Positions 476 to 8,510 of a stretch of 64,000 nucleotides of DNA are shown in pieces. The DNA lies in NCBI RefSeq assembly GCF_019891175.1, contig NZ_CP072600.1, positions 2,108,001 through 2,172,000 of the forward strand, written 5' to 3'. The stretch comes from Leptothermofonsia sichuanensis E412. Its GTDB lineage: Bacteria; Cyanobacteriota; Cyanobacteriia; Leptolyngbyales; Leptolyngbyaceae. Within the stretch, counting starts at the first letter, position 1, and every line of letters begins with the position of its first letter. Below the pieces are notes generated by a model. The model was not told the DNA's origin. It did not search any database and saw only the letters and a list, made by a program, of their open reading frames with translations. Made by a program: the position numbers and the translations under genes.

Positions 476-3400
476 TCAGTTAAAAACTTCCTGGGCAATA
501 CCTGGCGGTTCTGGCAGGTCAAGGTCGCGTTTATGACTGGCGCGATCGCCGTAATACATCAGTGGAATGACAATCAGGGTCAGGACAGAAGAGGTCAACA
601 TCCCGCCCAACAATGCCCACGCCAAACCTGACCAGACAGGATCATTGAGGATGGCAAGGGTGCCCAACATGGTGGTTACACTGGTCAGCAAAATTGGGCG
701 AAAGCGCACGGCTCCAGCTTCCAGAATCGACTCCTTTAAATCTGCCCCTTCCTTCAGTTTGTCCCCAATAAATTCCAGGAGAACGATCGCATTTCGCACG
801 ACAATTCCTGCCAGGGCAATGACGCCAATCATGGCTGTGGCACTAAAATAGACTCCATTGACGGCAAAGGCAAGCAGAATGCCAATCAATGCTAAGGGAA
901 TGCTGCCCAGGATAATCAACGGGACTTTGAAACTGCGGAACTGTCCCACCAGGATCAGGTAAATCAGTAGAATGGCTACCAGCATTGCCAGTCCCAGGTC
1001 CCGGAATACATCCAGGGTCAGTTTCCATTCGCCATCCCACTGAATCCAGTAGCCCTGGGGCAGGGGATGCCGGAAAAAGTAAATGAGTTGATCCAGAACC
1101 GCGTAGACTGAGGAGCGATCGCCCATTTCACCCATGACGTAGGCAACAGGACGCTGATCTTTGTGCAAAATGGGCTGATCAACGGTAGTAGGCTGAAAGG
1201 TGACCAGTTCTGTCAGGGGCACCAGGGAACCCTGGGAAGTCGGCAGTTGAATCCGGGTGAGGTCATCAATGCTCTGCCGGTCAGCATCGGCAAAGCGTAC
1301 CTGAATCGCTACTGGAGCCAGTTCACCGGGTACTTTCAGGGTAGAAACCTGGGACCCTGCGATCGCCATACTTAAGGTTTGGGCAATGTCCTGGGTGGTG
1401 AGTCCGGCGCGGCTCACCTTCTCCCGATCCACTATCAGCCGCATCTGGGGCATCTGGTTCTTTACAGAGTCGTCAATGTCCACAACTTCGTCAGTTTGAG
1501 CAAAGACCTGCCTGACCTGTCGGGCAAGTTGCCGCAACCGGGTGTAGTCGGGTCCATAGACCTCTGCCAGCATGGTTGAGCGAACGGGGGGACCGGGCGG
1601 ATCCTCCACCAGTTTGACAATGGCATTGTGCTGCCGGGCAATTTCTGTCAGCCGGGGCCGCAACCGGAAGACGATTCCTTCAGATTGAATGGAACGGGCA
1701 TCCTTGTTGGTCAAATGAACCCGGATGTCAGCAAAGTGTTCACCAATGCGATCAGTAGCGCCGCGCAACATGCCATTAAAGTCAATTGGTGCGCCCAGTC
1801 CCACATAGGTTTCAAAATTAGTAATCTCCGGCTCCTGTTTAAGCACAGCTTCTATATCCTGTACCATGCGATCGGTGGCTACCAGTTTCGTTCCCAGGGG
1901 AGCATCTAACTGCACCAGAAAGGTGTCTTTATTGGCTTTGGGCAGCATCCGAAACCTGACCATCTGGGTCAGGGGCAGAATAAACGAAGCCAGCAGCAAC
2001 CCAGTAATACAGAGCAGAACAAAGCGACGGCGACTGGCGGAATCCAGCAGGGGAGCCATGATGCTGTGATACCAGCGATAGATGCGGGTCTGTTCGATCG
2101 GTTTTGCACTGTTTTCGCCCGGCGGATGGTTGGATCGGGGGGGGATCTTAATTAATCGCAGGGCCAGAAAGGGTGTCACGGTGAGTGCCAGGGTGGTGCT
2201 GACCAGCATGGCAACCGGAACATTGAAGGGAATAGGTCCCATGTACGGTCCCATCATGCCTGTGACAAATGCCATTGGAATGAACGCAAGGATGACTGTA
2301 ATCGTGGAGAGAATCACGGGTGTACCCAGTTCATTCACAGCACTGATGGCGGCATGAGTTTTCTCCTGCCAGTTCATACCTGGTTTTTCTTCAAAGTGAC
2401 GGTGGATGTTTTCGGTCACTGCGATCGCGTCATCTACCAGGGTTCCCAATGCCAGGATGAGCGCGAACAGGGTAATCCGGTTAATGGTCTGCCCGGATAC
2501 CCAACCCACAGCCAGGGTGCCTGCCAGGGTCAAAGGAATGACAAATGCCACAATCATAGACTCGCGCCAGCCCAGGAAAATCACCAGCAAACCAACCACC
2601 GTAGCAATGGCAATGCCTAAACTCTGATAGAGGTCGCCTACGGCTCTGGCGGCTGTTTGCCCATCGTTGCGGGTGACGGCGATTGTGATTCCGGGAGGTA
2701 ATTGTGGTTTCAGCTCCTCAACCCGCTTAAAAATCTGACGGGCAACAGTAACCGCATTGGTGCCTTTTTGCTTGGCAATCCCAATTGTAATTGCCGGTTG
2801 AGTCACAAACCCTTCGGTCGGTCGAGCCTTTGAGTTGGGATAGGGGTTACTGACATCCCAGTCCTGCCGATAATGGATGCGCGACAGGGTGGTGCGATCG
2901 CCAAAATCATCCACAACGGTTGCTACATCCCGCAGATAAATCGGTGAAGTCGAACCCTGACCAAAGCCAACAATGATGTCTCCAACATCGGTTACGGACT
3001 GAAACAGGTTGCCGCCATCAATAAACAGGCGGTTAGTTCCTACGGACACATCTCCCGCCGGCAGTCGAGCATTTTCTCCCTGCAACCGTTGAGCAAGCTG
3101 GGCAGGAGATAGTTTATAGCTGGCAAGTTTGTCAGGGTCAAGGTCTACCCGAATAGTGCGGGGTTGCCCACCTGTAATGGTCAGATTGGCCGTGTTGGGA
3201 ATGCTGCGCAAGTCCTCCAGCAGACGCTCACCAACCCGTCGCAGTTGATTATCACTGTAGGCTTTGCCCGTTATGGTCAGCGTCACAATCGGGACATCGT
3301 CGATAATGACTGGCTTGACCAGATAGCTGGCACCGGGGGGAAGTAGATCCTGGTAGCTATACAGATGGTTTTGCAGCTTGAACAGGGAAGCTTCCCAATT

Positions 3401-3736
3401 TTGGCCCACAAAAAATTGCACTGTAATTTTGGCACCCGAATCTTGAGAGGCGGAGTAGATATGTTCCACCCCAGGTAATTCCCGTAGTTTTGCTTCAATC
3501 GGAGTGGTCAGTGTTTTTTCAACAACCTCTGCGGGTGCTCCGGGATAGGGTAAATAAACGTCTGCCGCTGGAACAACAATCTGTGGATTTTCTTCTTTAG
3601 GTGTCAATATCACCGCTCCCAACCCCAAAATCACCAGTGTTACAATGACCAGAATTGTCAGTTGGGAGTTGATGAAGTAGGCAGTCACCCGCCCGATGAT
3701 ACTGTACTGGCGGGAAGTGTCGGTGGAGTGGGACAT
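476..3736 (-). CDS. RND efflux transporter, AcrB/HAE1-like inner-membrane pump
   Basis: Proton-driven resistance-nodulation-division pump of about 1086 residues, the full length for the family. A first membrane segment lies near residues 25-45. A large periplasmic loop follows, then a membrane block whose TM4 carries the proton-relay pair Asp435-Asp436 in GTLVDDAIAVTEN. The second half repeats this plan. An in-frame ATG lies at 3895, but the extra 53 codons are the translation of hairpin repeat A, so I take the ATG at 3736, where the hydrophobic N-terminus begins. The periplasmic adaptor gene is directly upstream. Both are last in a leftward operon with sulfide oxidoreductase, ArsR and rhodanese genes. 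The substrate is unknown; the context suggests a sulfur species or thiol-linked compound, which is inference. Confidence 0.9.
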   Translation of the reverse strand: MSHSTDTSRQYSIIGRVTAYFINSQLTILVIVTLVILGLGAVILTPKEENPQIVVPAADVYLPYPGAPAEVVEKTLTTPIEAKLRELPGVEHIYSASQDSGAKITVQFFVGQNWEASLFKLQNHLYSYQDLLPPGASYLVKPVIIDDVPIVTLTITGKAYSDNQLRRVGERLLEDLRSIPNTANLTITGGQPRTIRVDLDPDKLASYKLSPAQLAQRLQGENARLPAGDVSVGTNRLFIDGGNLFQSVTDVGDIIVGFGQGSTSPIYLRDVATVVDDFGDRTTLSRIHYRQDWDVSNPYPNSKARPTEGFVTQPAITIGIAKQKGTNAVTVARQIFKRVEELKPQLPPGITIAVTRNDGQTAARAVGDLYQSLGIAIATVVGLLVIFLGWRESMIVAFVIPLTLAGTLAVGWVSGQTINRITLFALILALGTLVDDAIAVTENIHRHFEEKPGMNWQEKTHAAISAVNELGTPVILSTITVILAFIPMAFVTGMMGPYMGPIPFNVPVAMLVSTTLALTVTPFLALRLIKIPPRSNHPPGENSAKPIEQTRIYRWYHSIMAPLLDSASRRRFVLLCITGLLLASFILPLTQMVRFRMLPKANKDTFLVQLDAPLGTKLVATDRMVQDIEAVLKQEPEITNFETYVGLGAPIDFNGMLRGATDRIGEHFADIRVHLTNKDARSIQSEGIVFRLRPRLTEIARQHNAIVKLVEDPPGPPVRSTMLAEVYGPDYTRLRQLARQVRQVFAQTDEVVDIDDSVKNQMPQMRLIVDREKVSRAGLTTQDIAQTLSMAIAGSQVSTLKVPGELAPVAIQVRFADADRQSIDDLTRIQLPTSQGSLVPLTELVTFQPTTVDQPILHKDQRPVAYVMGEMGDRSSVYAVLDQLIYFFRHPLPQGYWIQWDGEWKLTLDVFRDLGLAMLVAILLIYLILVGQFRSFKVPLIILGSIPLALIGILLAFAVNGVYFSATAMIGVIALAGIVVRNAIVLLEFIGDKLKEGADLKESILEAGAVRFRPILLTSVTTMLGTLAILNDPVWSGLAWALLGGMLTSSVLTLIVIPLMYYGDRASHKRDLDLPEPPGIAQEVFN

Positions 3737-3760
3737 AATCTGAGTCCTTACAATTAATGC

Positions 3761-3860
3761 CATGGGCAACCTGGAAGCCAAGATCCCCGGTGTCTCGTTG
3801 ACTTCAGCCAAATTGACTGAATGATTCTCCCAGACACCGGGGATCTGGGGATTGTCGCAC
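3761..3860. repeat. Dispersed hairpin repeat, family A, copy 1
   Basis: About 100 bp with perfect 15-bp inverted arms, AGATCCCCGGTGTCT at 3781-3795 and its complement at 3832-3846, and outer borders GCAACCTGGAAG and ATTGTCGCAC. Related copies lie at 62251-62350 and about 23236-23330. It sits between the adaptor and pump genes of the efflux operon, so it is transcribed within that mRNA. Confidence 0.85.
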
Positions 3861-3869
3861 ATCCGGTGA

Positions 3870-5156
3870 TTAATTGACCTGGATAGCCATCCCATCTTTC
3901 AGGTCAGGAGGTGGTTCCAGAACCAGGCGATCGCCCGCTTTTAACCCTGAAAATACTTCTATATCAGAACCATGCATTTTGCCTGTCGTGATTGGCTGAA
4001 AGGCAGCCTGACCATTGACAACCTTGTAAACGCCTGTGATGCCAAATTGCTGCACCATTGCTGCCTGCGGAATCACTAAAGTTGTGCGAGCAGCCAGATT
4101 TTGAGTATTTGGTTGATTGGCCAGCTTAAGTCGTCCAAACATGCCCGGAAATACATCTGAAGTACTATTCAATGTCACTCTGACAGTGAAGTTCCGAGTT
4201 GCAGGATCAGCGGCAGGAATAATCTGGCTCACGGTACCGGACAAGTCCCGGTTCAACGCATCCAGATGGATGGAAACCCTTTTCCCCTGGCGAACCTGGG
4301 TAATCAAAGATTCCGGAACCTGGGTGGTAAAGCGCAGGCGATCGCGGCTTTCCAGGGTCACAATAGACTGCCCGGCTCCTGCCATCGCTCCCACTTCCGC
4401 GTACTTGCGAGTAATCACCCCATCAAACGGAGCGGTGATCGTCCCATAGTTGAGATTTGCCGACACCTGAGCGACCTGCGCCTGCGCCTGGGCGACCTGT
4501 GCCTGCGCCTGGTTCATCGTCGCTTGAGATTGGGTAATTCCGGCTTTGATCTGTTGAATTCGCGCCTGGGTCATGGAAACCCGCGTATTTGCCTGATCCA
4601 GCAATTGCTGACTGACGGCTCCTTCAGACTGCAACATCCTCATGCGACGCTGCTGCAACTGAGCATCTGCCAGTTCGGCCTCAGCTTCCAACAGTTGGGC
4701 ACGAGATTCTTGCAACCGTGCCTGGGCATTCTGGTAATTAGATTGTGCCATGTTCACGCCAGCCAGAGCCTGACCGCCCTGGGCCTGGATGTCGGCGACA
4801 TCGATGACCGCCAGGGTGTCTCCGGCATTGACGCGATCGCCTTCCTGGACATTTAACTGACGAATTTGCCCCATCACACGACTGGTCAGGGTAACGGTTT
4901 CCATTGGTTCCACCGTTCCAGTCAGGACCCGATTCGTTTCAATGCCCTGTAGGTGGGCAATTGCAGTTTTCACCTGCACTGGAGCCTCTGCCGACGCTGG
5001 AGTGGCCAGGGACTGTTCACTTTTTCCAGATTGACTCAGCCACCAGCCAGTTCCTCCGGAAACCAGCATCAACCCTATCAGTAAGCCAACCATCTGGATG
5101 GGTCGAAGCCGCAACAAAGCGTGAGTCAGCGGGGGGGATACCTTATCCATCACCAT
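3870..5156 (-). CDS. RND efflux periplasmic adaptor (membrane fusion protein)
   Basis: HlyD/AcrA-type adaptor of 428 residues that links the RND pump to an outer-membrane channel. One membrane anchor lies at about residues 22-42. A lipoyl half-motif follows, then an Ala/Gln-rich coiled coil at about 120-215, the second lipoyl half (GTITAPFDGVITRK) and beta-barrel domains ending in GLKAGDRLV. A ribosome site AGGAG lies 8 bases before the ATG at 5156. The rhodanese gene ends 19 bases upstream. No TolC-like gene is in the window, so an outer-membrane partner must be encoded elsewhere. Confidence 0.9.
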   Translation of the reverse strand: MVMDKVSPPLTHALLRLRPIQMVGLLIGLMLVSGGTGWWLSQSGKSEQSLATPASAEAPVQVKTAIAHLQGIETNRVLTGTVEPMETVTLTSRVMGQIRQLNVQEGDRVNAGDTLAVIDVADIQAQGGQALAGVNMAQSNYQNAQARLQESRAQLLEAEAELADAQLQQRRMRMLQSEGAVSQQLLDQANTRVSMTQARIQQIKAGITQSQATMNQAQAQVAQAQAQVAQVSANLNYGTITAPFDGVITRKYAEVGAMAGAGQSIVTLESRDRLRFTTQVPESLITQVRQGKRVSIHLDALNRDLSGTVSQIIPAADPATRNFTVRVTLNSTSDVFPGMFGRLKLANQPNTQNLAARTTLVIPQAAMVQQFGITGVYKVVNGQAAFQPITTGKMHGSDIEVFSGLKAGDRLVLEPPPDLKDGMAIQVN

Positions 5157-5175
5157 AATTCATTCTCCTGCTTAA

Positions 5176-5703
5176 CTATGGTTGACTGCCCCGTTGCAAA
5201 GGATAACCCGCCTGCTGCCATGCGATGGTTCCCCCTTGCAGGTTATAGACCTGATGGTAACCCTGCGAGACAAGCCAGTGAGCCGTGATCGCGCTTCGAT
5301 GGCCGGAGAGACAGGTAATCGCGATCGCCTGGTCTTTGGGAATCTCTTTAAGAATAGCGCTCCGACTCAACCGTTTTGCGCCCGGAATATGTCCCATCCA
5401 GTATTCCAACCCACTACGAACATCAATGACCAGCAATTGATTCTGGCGGGATTTCAGTTGAACCGGTGTGAGTGGAACCGGATTTATTGCTGATTTTTGG
5501 GTTGATTTCAGTTTCATATTTCCATACTGATCCTTGAGGGTTTGCTGGGACTGATACACCATCTGTCTAGGGGCTTCCTCTAGCTGCCGGATGGCCGCCG
5601 CCGCACTGGGAGAGTTGAGCAGCCCGGATCCCAAGAGGACACCGAAAATAATGACTCCTATCAGGAGTAACCAGGAAAAAAATTTCCGAATTCTGCATCC
5701 CAT
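5176..5703 (-). CDS. Membrane-anchored rhodanese-domain protein
   Basis: A 175-residue protein with an N-terminal membrane segment (about residues 8-28) and one rhodanese domain at about 78-172. The active-site loop is CLSGHRS with the nucleophile Cys131, and LLVIDVRSGLEYWMGHIPGA is the canonical CH2A-type motif. Rhodaneses carry persulfide sulfur from donors such as polysulfide or glutathione persulfide. Position directly after an ArsR gene and a sulfide:quinone oxidoreductase suggests it handles the sulfane sulfur made by that enzyme. The ribosome site GAGGTGA precedes the ATG at 5703. Confidence 0.88.
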   Translation of the reverse strand: MGCRIRKFFSWLLLIGVIIFGVLLGSGLLNSPSAAAAIRQLEEAPRQMVYQSQQTLKDQYGNMKLKSTQKSAINPVPLTPVQLKSRQNQLLVIDVRSGLEYWMGHIPGAKRLSRSAILKEIPKDQAIAITCLSGHRSAITAHWLVSQGYHQVYNLQGGTIAWQQAGYPLQRGSQP

Positions 5704-5724
5704 AGAGAATCTTCACCTCATATC

Positions 5725-6039
5725 TCATATAGTCTGATGTTGCTGATTTTGGGAATGAATCAGGCGAGTATGAGCACACAGAGCCAGTAGTTCCGTATCA
5801 ATCACCCGGTAATAGCGCCAGATCCCTTCCCGGCGACAGGCGACGACCCCAGCATCTTTCATCAGTCGCAGGTGTTTGGAGACATTGCCTTGAAGTAATC
5901 CTGTGCGATCGCAGATTTCCTGGACACTGCGTTCCTGATTACATAAGGCAGCCAGAATTTGCAGTCGAGCGGGTTCTGCCAGAATTTTAAATCGGCTTGC
6001 TAATAGTTCTAATTCGTGGCTATCAAGCGCGATGTCCAT
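5725..6039 (-). CDS. ArsR/SmtB-family repressor, probable sulfide/persulfide sensor
   Basis: Winged-helix dimeric repressor of 104 residues. The family core reads LAEPARLQILAALC, and the recognition helix region is GNVSKHLRLMKDAGVV. I prefer the ATG at 6039 (MDIALD), because AAGGAG lies about 6 bases upstream; the ATG at 6075 has AGGAG directly abutting it, leaving no spacing. Cysteines at 33, 43, 68 and 88 could form a dithiol sensor. In the persulfide sensors BigR and SqrR a Cys pair sits in helix 2 and the last helix; here the first Cys is about one helical turn later. Sensing of sulfide is inferred from this and from the neighbouring SQR gene. Confidence 0.85.
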   Translation of the reverse strand: MDIALDSHELELLASRFKILAEPARLQILAALCNQERSVQEICDRTGLLQGNVSKHLRLMKDAGVVACRREGIWRYYRVIDTELLALCAHTRLIHSQNQQHQTI

Positions 6040-6122
6040 GGTGGCTCCTTGTTCAAATATCGGGGCATTGCTCATCTCCTGTGTATCGCTCTCCCTTCAC
6101 CCCTCCCTCCCTTCCTTATTCC

Positions 6123-7415
6123 TCATCCCCTTACCTGAAGCGGTTCTAAGCTCCCAACTGGCTCTACCAGGGGTAACCCAATCGCCCGCAGTCCTGCCCG
6201 TTCAAACCAGGGCATCGTCCACCCCACCCGCATTTTGGCCATAAAGTATTTCTCAAAGGCTGTTTTCGCCCATGAAACCCAGATGCCCCTGGTGGTGAAG
6301 GCACGGCGGCGATGACCAGCATGGTCTGGGAGTAGGGGATCTGCCAGAAATAGGGCACCGGTATCCCCAAAGTCAGCAAAACAAATTGCCTGCAAGGTCG
6401 GCTTGATTGGCTGACCAGAAATGACACCCAGGTCAAGGGCAATATTGTGGGCCACACTGATAACCATTTCCTCGGTCATCTGGCCCACCTTCGGTACACC
6501 AATGGGAATCGGAGTGGGTTCAACGGGTTTCAGTTGAGTCACCACACCCACAGCATAGACAGAGTCAAAGTCCGGGTGGCGATAGGTTGGAAGCACTGGA
6601 ACAAATCCCCTGGCATCGGTTAGTCCTGGCGCTTCACGCAGAAAACGGGGACCCCGAAATGGTGGCAGGATCATGGCATATTTGAAGGGCAATTGGCGTC
6701 CGTCTGTCAGATGTACGGTGTCTGGTTCAATCCGGGAAATTGCCGTGTTATCCATCACGTCTATGTGCCGATCTGCCAGCACCGCTCGAATTAACCAGCG
6801 CGAGTCTGCCATGCCACCAATCCCCAGATGTCCGGCATAGGGTTCTGAAGTAACCAAGGTGATTGGAACGCGATCGCGCAGCTTCTTCTGGCGCAGCGTG
6901 TGGTGAGCCAGAAGCGCAAATTCGTAGGCGGGACCAAAACAACTCGCTCCTGGTGCTGCCCCCACCACCATTGGTCCAGGGTCCTGTAAGAAGCGGTCCC
7001 AGGCTTCCCGTGCGAGTAGAGCATGGTGGGGATTGCACACCGATTGGGTGTAGCCACCTTCTGGTCCCAGGCCTGGCAGGGCATCCAGCGCCAGTTCTGG
7101 TCCGGTTGCAATCACAACATAGTCATAATCCAGGGTTTGTTCCTTTAACCGGATCTGCCTGGAAGCTGGATCGATGGCAGTAACTGCCTCAAGCATTAAA
7201 TCAATGCCATGTTGGGGCACGATTTTGGCAAGCTCCAGTTGAATCCGAGCCAGCGATCGCAATCCCAACCCAACCCAGGGGAGTGAGGGAACAAAGGTAA
7301 ATTTGGGTTGATTTGAAATCAACGTTACCCGATGTTGGCGGGGTAATAGATGCCTCAGTTCATAAGCAGCAGGAAGCCCACCCAATCCAGCCCCAATGAC
7401 TACAACGTGAGCCAT
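6123..7415 (-). CDS. sqr: Sulfide:quinone oxidoreductase
   Basis: FAD enzyme of 430 residues that oxidises sulfide to sulfane sulfur and passes electrons to the quinone pool at the membrane. The N-terminal dinucleotide motif is VVVIGAGLGGLPAA. Three cysteines, Cys127, Cys159 and Cys345, lie where the family has its conserved redox cysteines, which favours SQR over NDH-2. The second nucleotide-related motif VYAVGVV lies near residue 287. The ATG at 7415 is chosen because AGGAG stands 8 bases before it; an ATG seven codons upstream lacks this. It is first in an operon with the repressor, rhodanese and RND pump. In Synechocystis a plasmid operon also pairs SQR with an ArsR-type regulator. Confidence 0.88.
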   Translation of the reverse strand: MAHVVVIGAGLGGLPAAYELRHLLPRQHRVTLISNQPKFTFVPSLPWVGLGLRSLARIQLELAKIVPQHGIDLMLEAVTAIDPASRQIRLKEQTLDYDYVVIATGPELALDALPGLGPEGGYTQSVCNPHHALLAREAWDRFLQDPGPMVVGAAPGASCFGPAYEFALLAHHTLRQKKLRDRVPITLVTSEPYAGHLGIGGMADSRWLIRAVLADRHIDVMDNTAISRIEPDTVHLTDGRQLPFKYAMILPPFRGPRFLREAPGLTDARGFVPVLPTYRHPDFDSVYAVGVVTQLKPVEPTPIPIGVPKVGQMTEEMVISVAHNIALDLGVISGQPIKPTLQAICFADFGDTGALFLADPLLPDHAGHRRRAFTTRGIWVSWAKTAFEKYFMAKMRVGWTMPWFERAGLRAIGLPLVEPVGSLEPLQVRG

Positions 7416-7536
7416 GATGACGACTCCTAAATTCAAGTTTCTAAACTTAAGTTTTGAACCACTGCCTCCTCACTCCTCTCCCTTCACCAGATGAACGCAT
7501 TCGTGAAAGTAAAAGTAAGATTGCTTTCACTATACT

Positions 7537-7554
7537 ACTATATAGGAATATAGT
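7537..7554. promoter_or_regulatory. Candidate ArsR-type operator upstream of the sqr operon
   Basis: A perfect inverted repeat, ACTATAT, four bases, ATATAGT, lies about 120 bases upstream of the sqr start in an AT-rich stretch that could also hold the promoter. ArsR/SmtB repressors bind AT-rich palindromes of this kind. The assignment to the operon's own repressor is inference. Confidence 0.5.
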
Positions 7555-7630
7555 CAAATCTAAGGGGCTTTAATTTAAGAGACTTCAAATGAGCAGGGGC
7601 TGACGCTATGCCTGCCCTATCTTTCCTATC

Positions 7631-7725: not shown

Positions 7726-8193
7726 TTAGATAGCAAAACCAAACTCATAACGGTTAATAAATAGCCCAATCACAATGTCATGCATCAGAATGGACTTAGA
7801 AAAGCAAATAGTTTTGCGAGCTAATCGCTTCAAGCGCGTGCGTAAAGTCAAATGCTTACGCTCAATCTTCTGCGTGTTCTGTTTGCCAACGGTATGAAGA
7901 CTTGGGTCAAGCTGCCGCTCATAGGTTCCCCAACCATCTGTGTAAAACTGCATAATTCCAAACGGTTCTAATAACGCTTTGAGTTGGAGGAATGCTTCAT
8001 CTTGATGCGTCGCCAACACATAAGCTAATATTTTTCCACTGTGATGGTCAATTGCATGCCATAACCAACGTTGCTGGGCTTTAGACTGGACAAAACTCCA
8101 CATTTCATCGGCTTCTGCCTCTGTATCTTCCCCCTGGCAAAGCTTTACGATGCTTTGAGCGGGTTCCAACTCAGCCAGTTTGAGTTCATTCAC
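7726..8193 (-). CDS. IS1-family transposase, InsB-like catalytic part
   Basis: 155 residues from the first ATG, with the IS1 DDE core: ADEMWSFV, the AIDHHSGKILAYV strand, FYTDGWGTY and the KIERKHLTLRTRLKRLARKT segment with its acidic residue. The frame is open upstream into the A-rich run at 8212-8220. A -1 slip from the InsA frame there would give the fused transposase, reading on as DRQLKAVNELKL. The catalytic motifs are intact. Confidence 0.85.
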   Translation of the reverse strand: MNELKLAELEPAQSIVKLCQGEDTEAEADEMWSFVQSKAQQRWLWHAIDHHSGKILAYVLATHQDEAFLQLKALLEPFGIMQFYTDGWGTYERQLDPSLHTVGKQNTQKIERKHLTLRTRLKRLARKTICFSKSILMHDIVIGLFINRYEFGFAI

Positions 8194-8510
8194 GGCTTTG
8201 AGTTGACGATCTTTTTTTTTAATTCCTCAATCACCGTCGTTGGACTAATGTGAAGGACACGGGCAGTGTCTCGAATCCCACTCCCATTCATTGCCATATC
8301 GCTGATTTGTTGCTTGACTTCAGGCAGATACCCTTGATAGGTGTATTGCAAAATAAAGGTGCGCCGATGGCATCCTGAGTTTTGACAAAAGTAGCGCTGT
8401 TTGCCGTCTGGTGTTGTGCCGTGTTTGATCACCTCAATCCCATCACACACAGGGCAGTGAATTGGTTCTAATACCATAACTTGAGTTCCCGCAACTACTG
8501 ACTTCTCCAT
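8190..8510 (-). CDS. IS1-family InsA-like DNA-binding protein
   Basis: 106 residues with an N-terminal zinc-binding region (CPVCDG, CQNSGC) followed by the insertion-element helix-turn-helix (SGIRDTARVLHISPTTV). On its own it acts in IS1 as DNA-binding regulator; joined to InsB by frameshift it forms the transposase. The slippery run of nine A residues (8212-8220 on this strand) lies just before its stop. Confidence 0.85.
   Translation of the reverse strand: MEKSVVAGTQVMVLEPIHCPVCDGIEVIKHGTTPDGKQRYFCQNSGCHRRTFILQYTYQGYLPEVKQQISDMAMNGSGIRDTARVLHISPTTVIEELKKKIVNSKP

Follow-up and report, generated by a model that had tools for sequence, protein, structure and literature searches.

Enzymes of the sulfide:quinone oxidoreductase (SQR) family oxidise sulfide with the transfer of electrons to quinone and release polysulfide or zero-valent sulfur, and the route by which this sulfur reaches the exterior of the cell is, to our knowledge, not settled. 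According to the review PMC4307280, the Synechocystis protein SuoS belongs to the type I SQRs, and the regulator SuoR is a repressor that binds the promoter region common to suoSR and suoCT. According to PMC4918915 and PMC5061849, the SuoR system is controlled by both arsenite and sulfide, and these sources, together with PMC4307280, describe an arsenite transporter as one of its components. RND pumps have been listed among the neighbours of ArsR genes responding to sulfane sulfur (PMC12423496), and in Geitlerinema a multidrug efflux pump gene is mentioned upstream of sqr2 in PMC5061849. The first-pass annotation of the locus presented here had proposed the export of a sulfide-oxidation product or of a toxic thiol, unusual for such a pump; since the link between RND pumps and sulfane-sulfur ArsR regulators was already in print (PMC12423496), this role is less unexpected than claimed. 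The literature searched, with most subscription papers outside its scope, contained no description of the cluster, of its operator or of the dual recruitment of the pump.

The genome of Leptothermofonsia sichuanensis E412 is a single contig of 6.43 Mb, in which the window, i.e., the whole 64-kb stretch analysed, covers positions 2,108,001-2,172,000. Searches against Pfam, NCBIfam and PDB bore out the proposed series of five leftward genes, SQR, ArsR, rhodanese, adaptor and RND (Table 1), with intergenic gaps of 47, 21, 19 and 133 bp on the minus strand from sqr to the RND gene. The gene previously read as a membrane rhodanese had to be reinterpreted, as it corresponds to a DUF3122-rhodanese deletion fusion and not to a conserved membrane rhodanese. 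The gene arrangement is far from chance because it recurs in many cyanobacterial genomes. An IS1-like transposase pair (7726-8510) was observed immediately upstream of the sqr promoter, and two dispersed repeats, with about 20 genomic copies each, lie downstream of the RND gene (97-169 and 204-418).

Table 1. Predicted features of the sqr-RND cluster (positions in the window).
Feature	Position	Strand	Observations
Operator dyad ACTATA-N6-TATAGT	7537..7554	-	Between -35 TTGACT and -10 TATAGT; 12/12 match
Operon promoter-like site TTGACT-17-TATAGT	7529..7557	-	10/12 consensus; top-scoring in region
sqr, type I sulfide:quinone oxidoreductase, 429 aa	6123..7412	-	PDB 3hyv and SuoS homology; Cys126/Cys158/Cys344
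ArsR/SmtB repressor, SuoR type, 116 aa	5725..6075	-	Cys45/55/80/100; HTH_5, HTH_metalloreg above cut-off
Chimeric DUF3122 (residues 1-62)-rhodanese (62-175) gene	5176..5703	-	Pfam matches; separate genes in relatives
RND periplasmic adaptor (membrane fusion protein), 428 aa	3870..5156	-	TIGR01730 above cut-off
Dispersed hairpin repeat, adaptor/permease gap	3737..3869	-	About 40 genomic copies, 78-89% identity
RND permease, clade A, 1086 aa	476..3736	-	PF00873, E 2.4e-183; tree of 83 RNDs

The product of the first gene, whose start is placed at the ATG at 7412, is by homology and by its cysteines a type I SQR. It aligns with PDB 3hyv over residues 2-408 (E 2.5e-102), its three cysteines matching the three SQR cysteines of this structure, and shares 51.6% identity with Synechocystis SuoS over 99% of the length. 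A second, decaying sqr locus is present in the E412 genome (G000:C1:1007254-1011054, L074); it contains YgaP_TM, an SQR without residues ~196-363, the third cysteine included, an ArsR and broken pieces of P131, a conserved 131-aa protein discussed below.

The arsR gene directly follows the type I sqr, as expected for a candidate SuoR-type repressor, and the conserved dyad, its putative binding site, overlaps the promoter. At the sequence level, the gene order and the operator are those of a putative suo operon. The ArsR proteins of the clusters share Cys45, 55, 80 and 100, with Cys45 and Cys55 varying in a few of them, and the same four cysteines are found in Synechocystis SuoR. The alignment with YgaV (3cuo as reference) revealed no counterpart of the Cys pair of SqrR, BigR and YgaV (about 66 residues apart, alpha2/alpha5), since Cys31 of YgaV corresponds to Ala42 in the window ArsR and no Cys occupies the alpha5 position of Cys98. 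With both cysteines missing, a dithiol sensor of the SqrR/BigR/YgaV type was ruled out.

The sequence ACTATATTCCTATATAGT separates the -35 and -10 hexamers upstream of sqr, and the dyad it participates in is the only perfect site of the 6.4-Mb genome. A dyad of at least 10/12 precedes the first gene in 24 of the 28 clusters, compared with 2.8% of shuffled upstream regions, and 1.4 Mb of loci contained 44 sites of at least 11/12, where the shuffles gave 0-3; the divergent layouts L053 and L054 have weaker dyads (9-10/12) between their two units. Ahead of arsR and of the rhodanese, adaptor and RND genes the dyad scores only 6-9, and the internal genes are therefore devoid of an operator of their own. 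Nothing promoter-like was seen on the coding strand between the rhodanese and adaptor genes, the place where a promoter with separate regulation would, according to the first-pass annotation, have refuted its proposal. As predicted from these data, one operator-bearing promoter, ahead of the first gene, serves the unit. The dyad was also observed ahead of psbA variants and of a persulfide dioxygenase-like gene (L044, L045, L186, L197, L046, L051 and L201), which suggests a wider sulfide regulon.

Concerning the third gene, its rhodanese part belongs to PF00581 and corresponds to a separate rhodanese gene in the relatives, and its signal-peptide-like beginning matches the N-terminal part encoded by a DUF3122 gene that also stands alone; in these relatives the two genes enclose the gene of P131. 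About 800 bp separate the DUF3122 text '...aaagatcaacatggcaat' from the rhodanese start 'atgaaatcaact' in L197, and the window shows the two fused in frame. As judged from this comparison, the gene is a deletion chimera, and its product, if exported, would act outside the cytoplasm, unlike the rhodanese of the relatives. No match to the YgaP-like TM domain (PF11127) was detected in it, the DUF3122 N-terminus being there instead, and a genuine YgaP-type membrane rhodanese was consequently discarded. P131 (e.g., L042:12468-12863 and its homologues) is annotated by RefSeq as a member of the SCP-2 sterol transfer family in Pseudanabaena, and sequence searches returned no usefully significant match for it, either in Pfam or among solved structures; with these searches empty and the RefSeq annotation as sole support, P131 was not retained as an SCP-2 protein. 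The E412 cluster has lost P131, its DUF3122 gene is reduced to a truncated form and its RND gene is preceded by a repeat; full function in E412 is thus not certain.

The permease matches ACR_tran (PF00873) over its full length and the adaptor matches RND_mfp. The RND open reading frame (476-3895) overlaps the adaptor gene by reading through the 133-bp repeat, and the start at 3736 (MSHSTD) was placed by comparison with the relatives, most of which have an adaptor-RND gap of 16-55 bp in contrast to the 133 bp of the window. This repeat forms a strong hairpin (z -4.1) without a U tract and is predicted to be neither a terminator nor a promoter; as neither kind of signal was seen in the repeat on the coding strand, separate transcription of the pump was rejected as the main reading. 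The Asp pair of TM4 (D435/D436) is invariant, and Arg981 of the permease is at what we take to be the position of AcrB Lys940. By sequence the permease is HAE1-like, with multidrug pumps as its nearest matches in PDB; its scores against the NCBIfam equivalogs of named multidrug pumps are all far below cut-off, and its score for the heavy-metal (CusA/CzcA) subfamily does not reach the cut-off either. Such RND pumps draw their substrates from the membrane or the periplasm, which would suit hydrophobic S0 or organic persulfides.

To place the cluster, SQR was searched in 386 cyanobacterial genomes, 34 of which have a full-length relative of the window SQR, and 40 further loci were added around relatives of the permease by a class-wide search. 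Synteny, whose absence outside this strain would have refuted the proposal according to the first-pass annotation, extends well beyond it, the cluster being found in many other genomes, among which Kovacikia minuta, of the same family, and Pseudanabaena, with the recurrent order YgaP_TM-SQR-ArsR-(Tll0287)-DUF3122-P131-rhodanese-adaptor-RND and often a psbA, cydA or persulfide dioxygenase-like gene nearby. SQR lies within 5 kb in 29 of the 46 sampled cyanobacterial loci with this type of RND, belonging to several families (21/24 for clade B and 8/22 for clade A, several others ending at contig edges), these figures being counts and not rates since the class sample was chosen to include close relatives. 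In the even sample of the phylum, the pump is present at 6 of 35 SQR loci, window included, and RND is absent at the 29 others; SQR function thus does not require the pump, an RND being absent from the majority of cyanobacterial SQR loci. On plasmid pPg_03 of Pseudanabaena galeata (L213, L172), some 90 kb separate the SQR half of the cluster from its pump half, and a Tn3 transposase follows the SQR half.

The tree of 83 RND permeases (FastTree) separates two lineages with strong local support, clade A grouping with Nitrospirota/Nitrospinota and clade B branching among Acidobacteriota, Verrucomicrobiota and others. Both non-orthologous RND/adaptor pairs occupy the same slot after the rhodanese, and the finding of two unrelated RND types there implies at least two separate recruitments of a pump to this unit. 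Several detached clade-A pumps keep the operator, with a dyad of 12/12 before YgaP_TM-adaptor-RND in L167, of 11/12 before adaptor-RND in L169 and of 10/12 at -92, -85 and -52 of the RND gene in L173, L176 and L178, respectively; the chance of three such dyads among nine units is about 6e-6, a post hoc value based on the shuffled rate. Several other clade-A RNDs (L180, L181 and L183) have neither a nearby SQR nor a good operator. Outside the cyanobacteria, most of the 80 loci among the matches listed have a YgaP-like TM gene adjoining the RND gene, in some cases accompanied by a rhodanese, an ArsR or an SQR, and among these matches the RND subfamily is linked to such TM genes in many phyla. 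A protein of about 100 aa, possibly PII-like, is encoded in the interval between the RND and YgaP-like TM genes in L123 (13167-13496) and in at least 24 other loci, many from Bacteroidota.

Taken together, the synteny, the single operator-bearing promoter and the operator of the detached pumps are in agreement with the initial proposal that the pump is part of a sulfide-oxidation unit. We consider it probable that the cluster is a SuoR-type, ArsR-repressed sulfide operon whose tripartite RND pump exports a sulfur product as its putative substrate. Against this reading stand the HAE1-like character of the permease and its resemblance to multidrug pumps, the many SQR loci that lack a pump, the clade-A RNDs with neither SQR nor a good operator, and the losses in the E412 cluster. 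In the absence of sulfide, as the motif and the SuoR precedent suggest, ArsR would occupy the ACTATA-N6-TATAGT dyad and the whole unit would be off; once its cysteines encounter reactive sulfur or arsenite, ArsR would, by analogy with SuoR, be released. The SQR would oxidise sulfide, transferring the electrons to plastoquinone and yielding polysulfide or zero-valent sulfur, and the rhodanese would handle the sulfane sulfur, probably at the outer face of the membrane in view of the fused DUF3122 signal peptide. In the weakest step of this scheme, the adaptor and the permease, together with a TolC-type channel whose gene lies elsewhere, would expel a hydrophobic sulfur product or an organic persulfide from the membrane or the periplasm. 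The linkage and the operator kept on detached pumps suggest that the pump removes something made in sulfide oxidation, its putative substrate being perhaps polysulfide or S0. The stronger proposal, that the pump is the exit route of the zero-valent sulfur or polysulfide made by SQR and that its RND subfamily serves generally in sulfane-sulfur export, would, if true, explain how cyanobacteria deposit sulfur outside the cell; it is possible in our opinion and still doubtful.

Other cargoes could be issued for the same pump. It could have no sulfur substrate of its own and clear membrane lipids or quinones that are damaged or displaced, or general toxic amphiphiles, under sulfide stress, with P131 as a lipid-binding partner; the HAE1-like character of the permease, the adjacency of P131 and the pump genes in most clusters and the SCP-2 annotation of P131 in Pseudanabaena are compatible with this, but neither the searches of Pfam nor those of structures gave P131 a useful match, and the window and L191 have kept the pump and lost P131, so that we regard this explanation as rather unlikely. 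The operon could also serve mainly in the response to arsenic or metalloids, the pump exporting metalloid-thiol conjugates, as might be expected from a SuoR system that answers arsenite as well as sulfide and has an arsenite transporter (PMC4918915, PMC5061849 and PMC4307280). However, among the genes tested for as neighbours, the recurrent ones are the sulfur genes PDO, rhodanese and YgaP_TM, and psbA/cydA, and the RND scores below the CusA/CzcA heavy-metal cut-off, which makes a metalloid function improbable.

The location of clusters on plasmids (Kovacikia minuta, Pseudanabaena) and beside IS or Tn3 elements raises the further question of whether the pump genes are passengers hitch-hiking with a mobile sqr island. 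The arrival of two RND types in one slot by independent events, the retention of the cluster across several families and the existence of detached pump units with the same operator are hardly compatible with this, and we hold it to be very unlikely. A pump co-regulated with SQR, twice recruited and keeping the operator when detached is a specific and testable candidate for sulfur exit, and the operator motif offers a sequence handle on the cyanobacterial sulfide regulon (sqr, psbA variants, persulfide dioxygenase and pump) that is relevant to anoxygenic photosynthesis and to sulfide tolerance.

The cluster can finally be compared with the systems already described. It resembles E. coli ygaVP in the association of a rhodanese and a membrane-targeting sequence with an adjoining ArsR gene, but differs from YgaP in that the window gene has no YgaP-like TM domain, its N-terminus being a DUF3122 signal peptide. 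As in the sulfane-sulfur ArsR regulons (SqrR, BigR, YgaV, SoxR and sHdrR), the ArsR gene adjoins sqr, rhodanese and transporter genes. The sqr operons of Geitlerinema PCC 9228 likewise combine sqr with arsR and have psbA variants near sqr, and the accessible portion of PMC5061849 describes neither an RND/adaptor pair in the sqr operon nor a shared operator. The suo unit of Synechocystis PCC 6803 differs in having a divergent suoC-suoT (chromate-type transporter) instead of rhodanese, adaptor and RND, and its SQR-DUF302 intergenic region carries a dyad of 9/12, weak on its own; its suoS-suoR genes on pSYSM nevertheless present the same succession as the clusters, i.e., type I SQR and ArsR followed by DUF3365 (Tll0287) and DUF3122.
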